Shown: one piece after another, positions 35,408-43,700 of the stretch | Layout: each line of letters begins with the position of its first letter | Numbering within the stretch: position 1 is the stretch's first letter | DNA from: Phycisphaerales bacterium | GTDB taxonomy: Bacteria; Planctomycetota; Phycisphaerae; Phycisphaerales; SM1A02 | Assembly (NCBI GenBank): GCA_020345805.1 | Contig: CP070772.1 | Span: 3,809,470 to 3,860,507, forward strand | Length of the DNA stretch: 51,038 nt | Direction of reading: 5' to 3' | The notes under the pieces: model-generated | Database searches by the model: none | Told to the model about the DNA's origin: nothing | What the model saw: the letters and a program-made list of their open reading frames with translations, nothing else | Made by a program: the position numbers and the translations under genes

Positions 35408-35869
35408 TTACGCGGTTGCGGCGTCAGGGTCGGCGAGGCGGCAGGTGAGAGTGGGCGGATGATAAGCCCCGCCGGCAAGCCCCGCTTCCTCGGTAAGCAG
35501 GTCGCTGCGGGCATAGACCAGCCGGTCGTCGTCGCCGATGGAGATTGCCGCCGCCCGCCAGCCGTCGAGACGGGCGTCGATGTGCGTCATTTCGCCGTCC
35601 TCGGTGACCTCGCACCGCGCCAACCGCCGCGGGACAACCTGCTTCCTTCGCGCCGGCGTCTGAATCCACATCTCCAGCATCGCGTGCTCGTCATCGATTA
35701 TCTGCAACTCAAGGACAACCTCGTGGCGCTGACAACTGCTGCCCTTGCCGACCGCGCTGTGAGCTCTGTCGACGGAAAGCGGTTGCACGCTTGCCCAGCG
35801 GACCTCGACCACCCGGTGCACCGGTGCGTGAGGAACGAAATCGGAAACGGGGTGGGTGGTCAGGGTCAT
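35408..35869 (-). CDS. hypothetical protein
   Basis: 153 residues from ATG 35869. Mixed alpha/beta composition with PVHRVVEVRW, RHEVVLELQIIDDEHAMLEMWIQTPARRKQV and AISIGDDDRLVYARSDLL. No membrane segment, signal or motif that I recognise. It lies between the GbsR-type regulator (52 bases upstream) and the truncated PHP gene. A longer frame back to 35971 would overlap the regulator's end and has no supporting ribosome site. Confidence 0.55.
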   Translation of the reverse strand: MTLTTHPVSDFVPHAPVHRVVEVRWASVQPLSVDRAHSAVGKGSSCQRHEVVLELQIIDDEHAMLEMWIQTPARRKQVVPRRLARCEVTEDGEMTHIDARLDGWRAAAISIGDDDRLVYARSDLLTEEAGLAGGAYHPPTLTCRLADPDAATA

Positions 35870-35921: not shown

Positions 35922-36497
35922 CTAAGAAGCCCGACCCAGCAGTCGGGCGGCGGTCTCCAGCCCCTCGCCATCCGGGCCGATGAATCGCCGGCTGATCGCC
36001 TCGATCATGTGCATGAACTCCAGCATCTGGTCGATGCGGGCGACCATCTCCTCCGCCTCCCCGGCCTCCGGACCGATCTTCCGCCCTTCCTTTGGTCGCA
36101 CCGCGTCGCGGCAGGAATGCAGCGCCTCCAGCAGCGGATCGACCTCGCGCTTCTTCCGCTCCCGCAGGATCGTGCGAAAGAGCTTCCACACATCCTGCTC
36201 GGCTTCGAAGTACTCCTTGCGATCGCCCCTCTGGCGGGTGCGGCTGACAATGCCCCATTCGGTGAGCGAGCGGAGGGTCATGGAGGCATTACCCCGGCTT
36301 ATGCCCAGGCCGGCCATCAGCTCGTCGGTATTCATGGGCCGCCCGACGATGAACAGAAGCGCGTGCACCTCGGCCATGGTGCGGGGAATTCCCCAACTGG
36401 AGCCCATCTGGCCCCAGAGTGAAACAAACCGCTCCCGGGCGGCTTGCAGCTCGCGGTCCGTCGCGGGCGTCTTGGTGTGCGGTTGACGTTCTGCCAT
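35922..36497 (-). CDS. GbsR/MarR-family transcriptional regulator
   Basis: 191 residues. A winged-helix DNA-binding domain at about 18-90, with the GbsR hallmark FVSLWGQMGSSWGIPRTMAEVHALLFIVGRPMNTDELM, then the recognition helix ISRGNASMTLRSLTEWGIV and wing RTRQRGDRKEYFEAE. The C-terminal helices (VDPLLEALHSCRDAV... MVARIDQMLEFMHMIEAI) should dimerise. Family members control choline/glycine-betaine or other osmoprotectant genes and often regulate themselves. ATG 36497 has GGAAG seven bases upstream. A promoter and a palindromic operator lie directly upstream, so autoregulation is likely. Confidence 0.9.
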   Translation of the reverse strand: MAERQPHTKTPATDRELQAARERFVSLWGQMGSSWGIPRTMAEVHALLFIVGRPMNTDELMAGLGISRGNASMTLRSLTEWGIVSRTRQRGDRKEYFEAEQDVWKLFRTILRERKKREVDPLLEALHSCRDAVRPKEGRKIGPEAGEAEEMVARIDQMLEFMHMIEAISRRFIGPDGEGLETAARLLGRAS

Positions 36498-36518: not shown

Positions 36519-36546
36519 AGCATACCGGCCCAATTGAGCTTGCCAA
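36519..36546 (-). promoter_or_regulatory. sigma-70-type promoter of the gbsR-like gene
   Basis: On the minus strand TTGGCA (36541-36546) and TATGCT (36519-36524) are separated by 16 bases, a good housekeeping-type -35/-10 pair. Transcription would begin about 36512, giving a leader of some 15 bases containing the ribosome site. Confidence 0.65.
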
Positions 36547-36553
36547 GCCTGTT

Positions 36554-36577
36554 TTCAGAAAATTCTGAATATTCAGA
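36554..36577. promoter_or_regulatory. three-half-site palindromic operator
   Basis: Three half-sites with alternating orientation: TTCAGAA (36554-36560), TTCTGAA (36563-36569) and TTCAGA (36572-36577), each two bases apart, so the pairs form overlapping inverted repeats including the perfect 12-bp palindrome CTGAATATTCAG. It lies about eight bases upstream of the -35 box of the GbsR-like gene and between it and the TSUP gene. The best-fitting binder is the adjacent regulator. Confidence 0.65.
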
Positions 36578-37370: not shown

Positions 37371-37495
37371 GAGAGGCGATAGTCTAGGCATTAATGTTGT
37401 CTGAGCCGGGCCACGATCGCCTGCCCGGCGGCCTGTTTCCGCCTGCAGATAAGGGCGCGGGCGGGTGAAGGGGATGGGGGAAGGAGTGGACAGGG

Positions 37496-37543
37496 TTGAA
37501 GGCTTGAAGGCTTGGAGGCTTGGAGGCTTGGAGACCTGAAGGC
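37496..37543. repeat. 8-bp tandem repeat, six units
   Basis: Six consecutive octamers: TTGAAGGC twice, TTGGAGGC twice, TTGGAGAC, CTGAAGGC. Consensus YTGRAGGC. The same octamer recurs as a three-unit array at 49141-49164. Confidence 0.85.
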
Positions 37544-37630: not shown

Positions 37631-38200
37631 GGGAGGTCGATTCCTGCGCGCGCCGGGCGCACATTGACGAACGTCGAAATGGGCCAAAAAACGGCGTTTC
37701 CGGGGGCGCCAAGGGGGCAGGTCGATTTCTGCGCGCGCAGGGAACGCAAATTCGCGCGCCGAGGGGGTGTTTACTTTGCGCGCGCAGATTCGTCGCAGCC
37801 CCCGGAAGGCGAAACGCTCCAAAAACCGCGTTTACAGGCTGTGAGCGAGGAAATAACCACATTTGCGCGCGCCAGAATGTCGTTTTGAGATGAGAGATGA
37901 ATGAAGAGGTTTGAAACACGGAGGGCCACCGAGGGCCACGGAGATGGGATAGGGTGGAGAGGTGAACAGGTGAGCAGGTGAGGGAAACGGGGGAATCGAA
38001 AAACGGCCCCCCACAGGGGGCCGAAGGTGCGCCATCTGCGCGCGCAGAAATCGACCTCCCCCCCACAACGTGGTCTCGGCGCAACCGCCGATTCGCGTAA
38101 CAGCCTGCCGATCAAGCTGTTACGTGCTCCTCAAATAAGCGGCAGTTTTCGCAACATTGCTCAAAACGCGCTTTTGTCGACGACATTTCTGCGCGCGCCG
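37631..38200. repeat. dispersed TGCGCGCGC-cored repeats
   Basis: A 20-bp element GGTCGATTYCTGCGCGCGC occurs at 37634-37653 and 37720-37738, and in inverted orientation at 38036-38060 (CTGCGCGCGCAGAAATCGACC). Shorter copies keeping TTTGCGCGCGC or TTTCTGCGCGCGC lie at 37774-37787, 37862-37875 and 38186-38200. The core TGCGCGCGCA is self-complementary. No spacer regularity, so not CRISPR. Confidence 0.7.
37999..38023 (-). terminator. rho-independent terminator of the beta-helix protein gene
   Basis: On the minus strand a perfect 8-bp stem (CGGCCCCC with GGGGGCCG, four-base TGTG loop) is followed by TTTTT. It lies about 280 bases after the stop of the dockerin-like beta-helix gene and is the first terminator met by that transcript. 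Confidence 0.75.
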
Positions 38201-38303
38201 GGGCATATCGCGCTGCAGATATAACGCCTTTGGAATCCCCCGCCCGAGTCACCACGGGCCTGCAGGGCCAGAGAAACGTCGCTCAGAGGTGCTGACCGCC
38301 TGA

Positions 38304-40490
38304 TCAGGGGCACGGCCCCCACTCGCCCAGGATTATGAACAGGTCGTCGATGTTGACTTTGCCATCGCCGTTCAGATCCTCCGGGCATTCATCGCACGTG
38401 CCCCAAGCGCCGAGGATCTGGAACAGATCATCGATGTTGACCTTGCCGTCGTTGTTGAGGTCGGCCGGGCATTCGCATTCATCGGGGATGCCGTTGTTGT
38501 TGAGGTCATCGCTGAACCCATCGGCGATATCACATTCGTCGGGAACACCGTTTCCGTTGCAATCCTCCACCAGGCCCTCAGCGATCTCACAATCATCATC
38601 AAGCGCGTTGAAGTTGCAGTCCGGAGCGGTGTAGCTTTCGACTTCAAACACGCCCATATCGACGATGGGCGGGTCGCCGAAACCGGTGTCCGGGGTGTTC
38701 GGATCATCGGCTCGTCTAATCTGCCTGTCGAGATCCAGCGAGCATAATCCGACGACAGCGTTGTCGCCGGCGTCAATGCAGGGTGATCCCGCAAGGATGT
38801 GCAGATCATCATCCTCGGTGCCGACGATGTCATCCGTGCCGTCGGGGTCGAGGAAGAGCGGATCATCGCCGATGTTGCCCGGCCCGGCGTATTGGTCCAA
38901 TTCCTGAATGCAGCAGGACGTCACGTTGGCAACGCTGTCATCGTCAGCCAGTGTGATCTGCGCCGATTCGGTGACGCCGGTATTGTCGCTGTTACCCCAG
39001 AAGATCGAGTTCACGATATTCACAGTCCCGCGCACGACCAACAGACCGCCCGCTTCCTCCGACGCCGAGTTGCCGACGACGGCACAGTTACTCATGCGGA
39101 GTTCGCCCTCCCAGCAACGGACAGCGGCACCATACGCCCCGACGTTTCCCGAGAATAGGCAATTCGTCAACGCGACGCTGCTGTGAATGTCCCCAACGGT
39201 GAGTCCACCGGTTCCGTCTTCCGCTTCGTTGCCCAGAAAGCGACAACTGGTGAACAATACACCCTGACTGTCCAGGACAAGTACTCCGCCGTCGGTATTG
39301 GCGATGAAGTCGCAGTTGACGACGTTTACCAACGCCTCGTCGTCGAGATACACGGCTACGCAGTCGTAGTTCGTTGACGAGTTGTCTTCGAACCTGCAGT
39401 TGGACATGCGGGCTTGGGCGCCGTCCTCGATGGCGATCGCAACGCCATGGTGATCCGCGTCATTGCCGGAGAAGTGACAGTCACTTATGACGAATTGACC
39501 CTCGTAGGCGCATGCGATCCCGCCTCCGCGGTGGTAGGCGAAGTTGTCAACGAACTGACAATCGCGCACGGTGATATCCGCCTGAATCAGGGCCAGCCCT
39601 CCGCTGTATCCGCCTGAGTAGTTGTCCCTAAAGCTGCATGAGGAGATGACCGCTGGGGCCTGCACGTTCGCACCGCCTCCCTGAGTAGAGGCGTTGCCTT
39701 CAAACACGCAGTGAGTCATGGTCAGCATGTCGTCGCTGAACGCAGCGAGTCCCCCACCGAAATTAAGATATTCCCACTCGTTGGCCCTGTTCCCCTCGAA
39801 ACGGCAATGCTCCACACTCGGGGAACCATTGAGAATGCCCACGCCTCCGGCGCTGCCGTCCGATACATTCTGAAGAAACGTACAGTCGACGATGACCAGA
39901 TCACTGTCTTCAAGCCACAGCCCAGCAGCCCACTCATCCTCAATCTGGTCTTCCTCGGCGAAGCCGCGAGTCACGGTGAAACCATCGAGGCTTGTCGTCT
40001 GCCCGAGTCCGAAACCCTTGAGAACATGTCCGCTGTTGTCTCCCATGTTCTCATATGGATCTGCATCGTCGTCCAGTAGATCGCCGCTCAGGACAGTCTC
40101 ATACAGGGTGACGTCGCGCTCATCGGGGTCCGGTGCGCCGAAGCCCGCGTAGCCGCCCATGAGGGCGACCCCGTCAGTCAATTCAAACGACGCCTCACGA
40201 TCGCCCGGCGTGACGTTGCCGCCTTCATCCTGATCGGGCTTGTGGGTCCCCTGACCGACATGGATCTCCTCCACTCCGGAGCCGGGCTGGGCCGCGGCGA
40301 GCGCGTCCTGCAGATAGCGATAGGCGGTGTTCCAACTCTGGCCGTCGCCGCCCAGAGGAGCATCATCATCCACGTACAGAACCGTGCCTGCGTGGGCGAT
40401 GGAGGTGGTGGTCGCCAGCACGAGAACTGCAATCGTGAACGTTATCACCGCGATGCGATCATTTCGATCATTGGCACGTGCGCGTAACAT
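38304..40490 (-). CDS. secreted right-handed beta-helix protein with dockerin-like tail
   Basis: 728 residues. The signal peptide is IAVITFTIAVLVLATTTSIAHAG after a basic start. The mature N-terminus GTVLYVDDDAPLGGDGQSWNTAYRYLQDAL is the usual opener of Pel/CASH-type choice-of-anchor beta-helix proteins. About 15 coils with S-x-C-x-F-x-x-N repeats (VDCTFLQNVS, EHCRFEGNRA, VNCDFIANTD) run from 190 to 570. Then N-G-V-P-D-E-C-type metal repeats (DCNGNGVPDECDI, DLNNNGIPDEC) and two EF-hand/dockerin-like repeats (DLNNDGKVNIDDLFQILGAW, DLNGDGKVNIDDLFIILGEW) ending in WGPCP. Probably a surface or secreted carbohydrate- or calcium-binding protein. ATG 40490 precedes the signal; the frame stays open to 40760 but without coding character. 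Confidence 0.88.
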   Translation of the reverse strand: MLRARANDRNDRIAVITFTIAVLVLATTTSIAHAGTVLYVDDDAPLGGDGQSWNTAYRYLQDALAAAQPGSGVEEIHVGQGTHKPDQDEGGNVTPGDREASFELTDGVALMGGYAGFGAPDPDERDVTLYETVLSGDLLDDDADPYENMGDNSGHVLKGFGLGQTTSLDGFTVTRGFAEEDQIEDEWAAGLWLEDSDLVIVDCTFLQNVSDGSAGGVGILNGSPSVEHCRFEGNRANEWEYLNFGGGLAAFSDDMLTMTHCVFEGNASTQGGGANVQAPAVISSCSFRDNYSGGYSGGLALIQADITVRDCQFVDNFAYHRGGGIACAYEGQFVISDCHFSGNDADHHGVAIAIEDGAQARMSNCRFEDNSSTNYDCVAVYLDDEALVNVVNCDFIANTDGGVLVLDSQGVLFTSCRFLGNEAEDGTGGLTVGDIHSSVALTNCLFSGNVGAYGAAVRCWEGELRMSNCAVVGNSASEEAGGLLVVRGTVNIVNSIFWGNSDNTGVTESAQITLADDDSVANVTSCCIQELDQYAGPGNIGDDPLFLDPDGTDDIVGTEDDDLHILAGSPCIDAGDNAVVGLCSLDLDRQIRRADDPNTPDTGFGDPPIVDMGVFEVESYTAPDCNFNALDDDCEIAEGLVEDCNGNGVPDECDIADGFSDDLNNNGIPDECECPADLNNDGKVNIDDLFQILGAWGTCDECPEDLNGDGKVNIDDLFIILGEWGPCP

Positions 40491-40674
40491 CGGAAGTACT
40501 CCCCTAATGGCAGGATGTAACTCGAATGCTGCCCTGCAACCCCATTCCCGCCCCCGGCGCGGCCGGTAGCTGCCCTTTGGCCCCAGTTTACCGCGGAGTG
40601 AGGCGTTGTCGAGAAAAAAGCGGGCTTTTCGCCTGTGCAGAGAGCGCACGGGGTGGTCGAGGGCCGCCGTGGCC

Positions 40675-40712
40675 GGGGACGGCACGGCTTGCTGGGGACG
40701 GCACGGCTTGCT
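40675..40712. repeat. perfect 19-bp tandem duplication
   Basis: GGGGACGGCACGGCTTGCT occurs twice head to tail with no mismatch (40675-40693, 40694-40712) in the gap between the beta-helix gene and the RND permease gene. It lies downstream of the permease stop on the transcribed minus strand. Confidence 0.8.
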
Positions 40713-40756
40713 CAGAACCTCGAAACGCGCGTTCTCTCCAGCGGGTTCGCTCGTTC

Positions 40757-43700
40757 TCACACAGCCGCCGCCGGGGCCGGGCGGTTGCTGTAGACCATCC
40801 AGTACACCACCGGGATGAGAACCAGCGTGAACGCGGTGGAGACGAACAGGCCGAAGATCAGCGACCAGGCCAGGCCGGAGAAGATCGGATCGAGCGTGAT
40901 CGGCACCGCCGCGAGCATCGCGGTTCCCGCGGTGAGGAAGATCGGCCTAAAGCGCACCGCCCCCGAATCAAGGATCGCCTGCTTCAGGTCCAGACCCTGC
41001 GCGATCGCCTGGTGGATGAAGTCGATGAGCAGTATCGCGTTGCGCACCGCGATTCCCGAAAGCGCGATCATGCCGATCATCGCGGTGGCGGTGAAGAACA
41101 CGGGATTGTCGTAGCCGCCGACGGGGTGGTTGCTGATCAGGTTCAGCAGCCAGAAGCCGGGCATGATCCCGATGATCGTCAGGGGGATGGAGATCATGAG
41201 GATGATGGGCATGAAGTAGCTGGAGGTCTGATAGACGAGCAGAACGTAAATGCCCAGGCAGGCGGCGGCGAAGGCCAGGCCCAGGTCGCGGAACACGTCC
41301 ACGGTGATCTTCCATTCGCCCTCGCCGGCCCATTCGATCTCGAAGCCGGCCGGCACGGTTGAGCCTTCGCCGCCGGGGGCGACGTCGCGGTGCATGTCGA
41401 TGATCGCCTCGGCGGGCGTCCGGCCGGCGACTTCGGCGAACACGTAAACCACCGGCCGCAGGTTCTTGTGGTATATCGTCTGGTCCTGCACCGTTTCGAC
41501 GAAGCGTCCCAGCTCGCCGAGCTGGACCATGTTGCCTTCCGGGCCGGAGACGTAGAGGTTCTCCAGCCGGGAAAGATCGCTGCGCTCGGCCTGCGGCAGG
41601 CGGAGGCGAATGGGCGTGGGATTCACTTCATCGGGCTGATGGCAGACCGTCACGTTCGCCCCATCCAGGGCGATCTGCAGAGTGCGTGCGATGTCCGCGG
41701 TGGAAAGGCCGGCCAGGGCCGCCTTCTCCTTGTCGGTTACGAACACGAACTTCGTCTGATCCGCCTCCACGGTGGAATCCACATCCACCACGCCCGGCTC
41801 GGCGATGAAACGCTGCTCGACGGATTTGGCGACCTGCTGAAGATCGGCGTAATCGTGATAGGGCCGGCCGTAAACCTCCACCGTCAGCGTGGCGATGACC
41901 GGCGGGCCGGGAGGAACCTCGACAATCTTAATATTGGCTCCGTTGCGGATAGCGATGGCGTCAAGATCCTGTCTCAGGCGCAGGCCGATCTCGTGGCTCT
42001 GGTGCCGGCGACTGCGTTTCTCCAGGAAGTTGGCCCGGATGTCGGCGACGTTGGGGCCGCTCCTGAGATAGTAATGCCGCACCATCCCGTTGAAATCCAT
42101 GGGGCTGGAGGTGCCGATGTAAGTCGAAACGTTCGTGACTTCATTGACGTTCTGAAGATACCGGGCCAGCTCTTCGGTGACCGCCGCGGTCCGCTGGAGC
42201 GTGGTGCCTTCGGGCATGTCCACCACGATCTGGATCTCGTTCTTGTTGTCAAAGGGCAGCATCTTCAGCGGCACCTGCCGCGTGGCGGCGAGCAGGCAGG
42301 ACAGACCGAAGAGAACGAACATCACGAACACCAGGCCCCAGGCCAGCGGGCGCCGGTCCAGGAACGGCTGCACGATGCGCGAATAAACCTTGTAGAGCCC
42401 CGATGCGTGCAGGTCGAACGGCTCCTTCTCCACCCGGCCGTATTCGCCTTTGAGCACGTGATAGCTCATCCAGGGAGTGATGGTGAACGCCACCAGCAGG
42501 CTCATGAGCATCGCCAGCGGCACGTTCAGGGCCATCGGCTGCATGTACGGGCCCATCATCCCCGTGATGAAGAACATCGGCACGAAGCTCACGATCACCG
42601 CCAGGGTGGCGAGAATGATCGGCGGGCGCACTTCATTCACCGCGGTCATCACCGCCTGCAAGGGCTTCTCCTTGCGCATCTTGAAGTGGCGGAAGATGTT
42701 CTCCACGTCCACGATGGGGTCGTCCACCACCAGGCCCAGCGAAAGGATGAGGGCGAAGAGCGTGACGCGGTTGATCGTGTAGCCGAAGATGTAGTTGACG
42801 AAGAGGGTAAGGGCGAAGACCAGGGGCACCGCGGTGGCCACGATGATCCCTTCCCGCCAGCCCAGGCTGAGGGCGATGAGGCCAATGACGATGACGATTG
42901 CCACCGCCAGCGCTTCCACCAGCTCGTTGACCTTGGTGTTGGCGGTCTCGCCGTAATCGCGGGTGATGCGGTAGTGAACGCCCTCGGGAAGCAGCGTCGG
43001 CGCGAGGCGCTCGAGCTCGGCCTGCACCGCACGGGACACCCGCACCGCGTTGGTGCCCTTCTTCTTGGCCACGGCAATGGTCACCGCGGGATTGAGCCGC
43101 ACCCCCCCATCATTCGAACCGGCTGGCTCAGTCACGCGATCGTGATTCGCACCTTTATGCTCGAACTCGGCCCCCGCCCCGAAGCCGAAGTGGGTGTAAG
43201 TCTCGACCTCCGCCGCGGCGAGGCGGACCTCGGCCACGTCCCGCAGATAGACCGGCCGGCCGTCGGCCACGCCCAGCACCAGCTCCCCCACCTCCTCGAC
43301 GCTGCGCAACACTTCGCCGGCGTCGACGACGTATTCCTTATCGATCTGCTCGAAGGCTCCGGCCGGCAGAGTCACGTTCGCGCCGATCAGGGCCCGCTGG
43401 ATGTCGGTGATGGTCAGGCCCCGGCCGCCGAGGCGCTCAGGATCCAGCTCTATCTGCACCTGGCGAGGCCGGCCGCCCACGATCATCGTCCGCCCGGTGT
43501 TCTTCACCGCCTGCAGGCTGGATTCCATCTCCTCGGCGATGCGCCGCAGCTCGATATCGGAGTACCGGTCGCTGTAGAGCGTGATGTTGACGATCGGAAC
43601 GTCATCGATCTCTATGGGCTTGACCACCCATCCGGCCACGGAAGGCGGAACGATGTCGGTGTAGCTGGCCAGCTTGGACTGGAGCTTCACCAGGCTGTCC

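Follow-up and report, generated by a model that had tools for sequence, protein, structure and literature searches.

A conserved palindrome as the likely operator of a GbsR-type regulator in Phycisphaerales, with related sites upstream of mqnC and mqnE in relatives

A palindrome of the class TTTCA-N8-TGAAA lies ahead of the gene for a GbsR-type regulator in a Phycisphaerales bacterium (SM1A02; assembly GCA_020345805.1, contig CP070772.1, positions 3,809,470-3,860,507 of the forward strand; this whole stretch of 51,038 nucleotides is called the window here). Comparison of orthologous sequences makes it probable that this 18-bp element is the operator of the adjacent regulator, a site for one dimer located some 50 bp ahead of the start of a two-gene operon. 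Additional sites in relatives suggest that the role of the regulator is linked there to the menaquinone synthesis genes mqnC and mqnE. The comparison thereby provides a GbsR-type clade that had not been characterised, from an order that has received little study, with an operator motif and a probable physiological function, and the proposed circuit is directly testable.

The conserved palindrome upstream of the regulator gene

The regulator gene (35922-36497, minus strand) encodes a protein of 191 amino acids. The operator is located at 36553-36570, reads ATTCAGAATTTTCTGAAA on the minus strand and has nine of the ten core letters. Between operator and gene lies the promoter of the regulator operon, TTGGCA-N16-TATGCT (36519-36546, minus strand), which is directed at the regulator ATG at 36497 and is the sole promoter-like match between 36450 and 36700 (0.0 expected in shuffled sequences). 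The operator ends 6 nt short of the -35 element and the -10 element begins 28 nt after it, placing the operator centre near -50. An earlier sequence-only reading had described this promoter together with three half-sites, TTCAGAA (36554-36560), TTCTGAA (36563-36569) and TTCAGA (36572-36577). Inspection of the sequence bore out the position of the promoter as well as the coordinates of the half-sites, their two-base gaps and their alternating orientation. The combination TTCAGAA-N2-TTCTGAA occurs a single time in the window even if two mismatches are allowed (0.05 expected), and a single time in the 3.94-Mb genome with one mismatch allowed.

Orthologues of the regulator were collected from relatives, the named ones originating from Phycisphaerales and related Planctomycetota assemblies, and their upstream regions were compared. 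The palindrome was found upstream of the regulator in 51 of the 56 assessable loci, the inner letters being A-rich and then T-rich, and about 0.6% of Markov shuffles matched its score. Not counted among the 56 were a locus truncated before the gene (L036), three duplicates (L001, L032, L033) and L097, which is at a contig edge and has its match inside the coding sequence; near-duplicate loci occur between the two collections (e.g. L040 and L086). The most divergent loci are among the five in which the operator is missing (L045, L091, L094, L095, L096), and in a fresh sample of the sister family 7 of 34 regulators had no site of their own. Conservation of the self site is position-specific and spans dozens of genera. 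The site had been proposed as the operator of the GbsR-like gene, a proposal that would fall if the motif were absent in relatives carrying the gene; its presence before nearly all orthologues supports the assignment.

The regulator, its paralogues and its operon partner

The regulator contains a MarR-type winged helix-turn-helix domain (PF12802, 38.2 bits, cut-off 27), and its best relative in the PDB is Mj223 (1ku9; phmmer 7.5e-13, residues 18-139). The best NCBIfam model is choline_R_CudC (NF047500), but the score of 62.3 bits is far under the cut-off of 218; thus we regard the protein as a relative and do not file it as a choline regulator. Passages of PMC6207618 name Mj223 (1KU9) as the structural template for GbsR and class GbsR-type genes by their neighbours, namely glycine betaine synthesis, Opu transporters, other transporters and cytochrome bd (CydE); none of the neighbour classes given in these passages concerns menaquinone. 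The adjacent genes scanned in the window (a TauE/SafE permease, a 153-aa hypothetical protein and a PHP domain) included no osmoprotectant, glycine betaine or cytochrome bd gene.

GbsR of Bacillus subtilis, the choline-responsive repressor of gbsAB and opuB, is a dimeric regulator of the MarR superfamily like the window's family, and its operator, an A/T-rich inverted repeat according to excerpts of PMC7396694, resembles the present palindrome. The gbsAB operator is located downstream of the start and has a 4-bp spacer (same excerpts of PMC7396694), whereas the TTTCA-N8-TGAAA site of the window is located upstream of the -35. Unlike B. subtilis GbsR, the window regulator stays far below the equivalog cut-off for CudC and has no osmoprotectant gene among the adjoining genes scanned. 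CydE, a GbsR-type protein encoded beside cytochrome bd operons, is tied to respiration, as the present regulator would be; it is reported to exert negative control on cydAB (Xia et al. 2018, as cited in passages of PMC6207618). Compared with CydE, the putative targets here are the quinone-synthesis genes mqnC and mqnE, which are mostly distant from the regulator gene, and the present regulator has a conserved small partner protein. If true, a GbsR-type regulator bearing on quinone synthesis would extend the respiratory branch of the family.

A second GbsR-like clade (B, loci L103-L122) is present in the same order and splits cleanly from the clade of the window in a tree of 27 + 20 sequences. 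The two clades are alike in family, in their similar size and in having an 18-bp TTTC...GAAA palindrome. They differ in the recognition helix, which is VARSNVSTSLRELQ in clade B versus ISRGNASMTLRxL in the clade of the window regulator, and in the operator, which in clade B, as read by eye, is mostly TTTCTGT-N4-ACAGAAA and is located near the -10, directly before the gene.

The presumed second gene of the operon (35408-35869, minus strand) begins 52 nt past the regulator stop codon and encodes the fast-evolving 153-aa protein, the family of which has a C-terminal end with an LLYARSxLLxxxGxxGGxY-like motif. In 71 of 87 loci the family profile has a match behind the regulator gene, and in many loci the two genes overlap by 4 bases. 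This protein had been proposed as a member of the regulon, which is supported insofar as the comparison of loci makes it the probable operon partner of the regulator. A structure prediction yielded an all-beta fold (a modest model with a mean pLDDT of 73.9), and since Foldseek found no match to this model at E <=0.001 (TM about 0.3), we did not read a function from the structure.

The TSUP permease, likewise proposed as a regulon member, was rejected: relative to the operator its gene is situated upstream rather than downstream, and no homologue was found in the 86 relatives' loci tested. Several other features were observed in this part of the window. Past the TSUP gene, non-coding DNA (37640-38202) contains multiple ATTTCTGCGCGCGC(A/C)GG-like elements, some of them as inverted pairs with long arms, and a short tandem array with the 8-base unit AGGCTTGG is present at 37492-37539. 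An ORF of 818 amino acids (38304-40760, minus strand) carries two NNDGKVNIDDLFxILGxWG-like repeats near its C-terminus, which we take to resemble dockerin-type repeats.

Sites upstream of mqnC and mqnE in relatives

The genes mqnC and mqnE belong to the futalosine pathway for menaquinone (vitamin K2). A pattern search revealed extra operator sites in relatives, several of which are located directly before two radical SAM genes. The best model for one of the products was TIGR03699 MqnC (P0001, 383.5 with a cut-off of 428.1) and for the other TIGR03700 MqnE (P0002, 417.0 with a cut-off of 434.55). Since the expected model was the best one in both cases and the cut-off was narrowly missed, the genes are called mqnC-like and mqnE-like. 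Nearly all sites of the initial pattern search in regulator-bearing genomes of the sister family were at the regulator operon itself, at mqnC or at mqnE. In genome G028, mqnC comes third in an unbroken row of genes behind the operator, after the regulator and its partner and on the same strand. A sister-family pattern site away from these three places was seen at G092:C7:769278 (L073). The osmoprotectant or organosulfur targets that had been envisaged for the regulator were not found among the sites listed; the genes at which extra sites were seen repeatedly in relatives are mqnC and mqnE.

Matches were obtained in 82 genomes for mqnC and in 83 for mqnE, and 50 genomes were examined for each gene, those left out including families f5 and f6. 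In this first sample, a site with all ten core letters was found at mqnC in 13 of the 35 testable genomes with the regulator (G030, with its mqnC at a contig edge, is outside the 35) versus 0 of 14 without it, and at mqnE in 10 of 36 versus 0 of 14; the initial part of the sample had given 10 of 19 versus 0 of 11 for mqnE. The list of regulator-bearing genomes was made by hand from long, high-scoring matches. The positives belong nearly all to the sister family f2 (10 of 10 genomes for mqnC, 9 of 10 for mqnE). Regulator-bearing genomes without a site amounted to 22 of 35 for mqnC and 26 of 36 for mqnE, and outside the sister family the site is missing from both mqn genes in most regulator-bearing genomes.

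A fresh sample of the sister family comprised 51 mqnC, 51 mqnE and 34 self loci. With the regulator present, the site was found at mqnC in 45 of 49 cases and at mqnE in 38 of 47; it was absent in four of four comparisons without a detected regulator (G134, G136 and G128; one for mqnC, three for mqnE). The exception is G137, a genome 69% complete that has both mqn sites and no regulator match. Pooling the sister family gave 55 of 59 with the regulator versus 1 of 4 without it for mqnC (Fisher p 0.003) and 47 of 57 versus 1 of 6 for mqnE (Fisher p 0.002), related genomes being treated as independent in both tests. As a background, 7 of about 804,000 positions of these loci attain the score when the upstream regions under test are set aside. 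Searches for futalosine or menaquinone together with a regulator, covering parts of open-access PMC texts, returned nothing matching the present circuit and no paper on a futalosine-pathway regulator; PMC4746308 gave no match for regulation terms.

The genome of the window (79.88% rated completeness) gave no match for MqnC, MqnE, PF02621 (MqnA/D) or MenD; thus its own two-gene operon is the only supported target there, and autoregulation of this operon is all that can be claimed. Together with five other genomes without mqnC/mqnE matches (G016, G026, G044, G052, G058), this genome (G000) keeps the self site, and therefore the regulator should have another use in these lineages.

Promoter geometry and mode of control

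In 36 of 50 distinct self promoters a TANNNT hexamer is located 27-30 nt past the operator (shuffled mean 1.6, maximum 6; the tally is free of tie-breaks). The spacer and the -35 region of the 50 promoters are low in information; in the interval 26 to 20 nt upstream of the -10, no position exceeds about 0.35 bit. This geometry supports the placement of the operator upstream of its own -35 that had been read from the window. Activation fits better than simple blocking since the spacing between operator and -10 is fixed and the -35 poorly conserved, and the operator is thus more likely to activate or tune its own promoter than to block it. The fixed spacing may also reflect shared descent or polymerase hindrance.

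The arrangement at the mqn genes is another one. The right arm of the mqnE sites is TTGAAA in 30 of 49, with TANNNT 16-18 nt further on in 18 of 49, and therefore the mqnE operator appears to be laid over the -35. In four g46 genomes, the mqnC operator is followed at 1-3 nt by the start of a -10-like hexamer. Since the operator often overlaps the -35 of mqnE and abuts the -10 of mqnC in these g46 genomes, the sequences point to repression of both genes.

In the explanation that we favour, the regulator would bind the palindrome and would repress mqnE by occluding parts of its promoter; the same would apply to mqnC in cases where the site adjoins the -10. Its own operon it would more likely activate or tune, from a site just upstream of the poorly conserved -35. 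The ligand would reflect the state of the quinone pool or of the futalosine pathway, the partner helping in sensing. Going further, we tentatively propose a dedicated futalosine-menaquinone circuit in Phycisphaerales, a reading to which we give somewhat less than an even chance. Here the regulator, together with its small all-beta partner, would sense quinone status, repress mqnC and mqnE from operators overlapping their promoters and activate its own operon from the same operator at about -50. Lineages in which the pathway is missing, such as that of the window, would retain the sensor operon to serve a different target.

Autorepression of the own operon is common among MarR-type regulators. 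It might also be that the site of the window does nothing else than lower expression of its own operon, the mqn sites being a lineage-specific addition irrelevant to the window; we consider this a serious, if rather doubtful, explanation. The polymerase could indeed be hindered by a dimer that reaches to within 6 nt of the -35, and the retention of the self site in the six genomes without mqnC/mqnE matches agrees with such a function. However, blocking does not require the spacing to be constant, whereas 27-30 nt to the -10 combined with a poorly conserved -35 is expected of an activated promoter.

Another transcription factor might recognise the palindrome and co-regulate the operon and the mqn genes, but this is unlikely. 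The mqn sites of G137 would be accounted for in this way, and binding of the palindrome by the regulator is deduced from sequence comparison. Yet the palindrome precedes the great majority of the orthologues, the other regulator-less genomes of the sister family have no sites (G078, G099 and G134 for mqnC; G078, G099, G134, G136 and G128 for mqnE), and the paralogous clade pairs another recognition helix with another operator.

Still less probable is the triple half-site operator of the sequence-only reading, in which overlapping dimers compete for three half-sites and thereby provide graded control. The third half-site (ATTCAGA, 36571-36577) is truly present, in alternating register, but a half-site within 16 bp of the operator recurs in only 2 of the 51 loci, the window and L076. 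Thus, the conserved unit is the 18-bp palindrome without the third half-site, which is particular to the window sequence and was rejected as an operator component. Moreover, half-sites 2 and 3 (TCTGAAT-ATTCAGA) face outward, whereas the arms of the conserved palindrome face each other, and they therefore do not form an equivalent dimer site. A chance palindrome without function would be in line with the 29 sites of at least nine of the ten core letters in the genome versus 17 for a reversed control pattern, but is refuted by the position-specific conservation before orthologues and has next to no probability.

The one-mismatch sites across the window's own genome are mostly chance occurrences. 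A second strong operator-like site is located at G000:C1:3306353-3306370 (L061 3354-3371), about 70 bases before an ORF that is presumably an FGE-sulfatase-like sequence. It fits the inner palindrome pattern and is regarded as no more than a candidate. A further exact match in this genome, at 3324570 (L062), falls outside that pattern.
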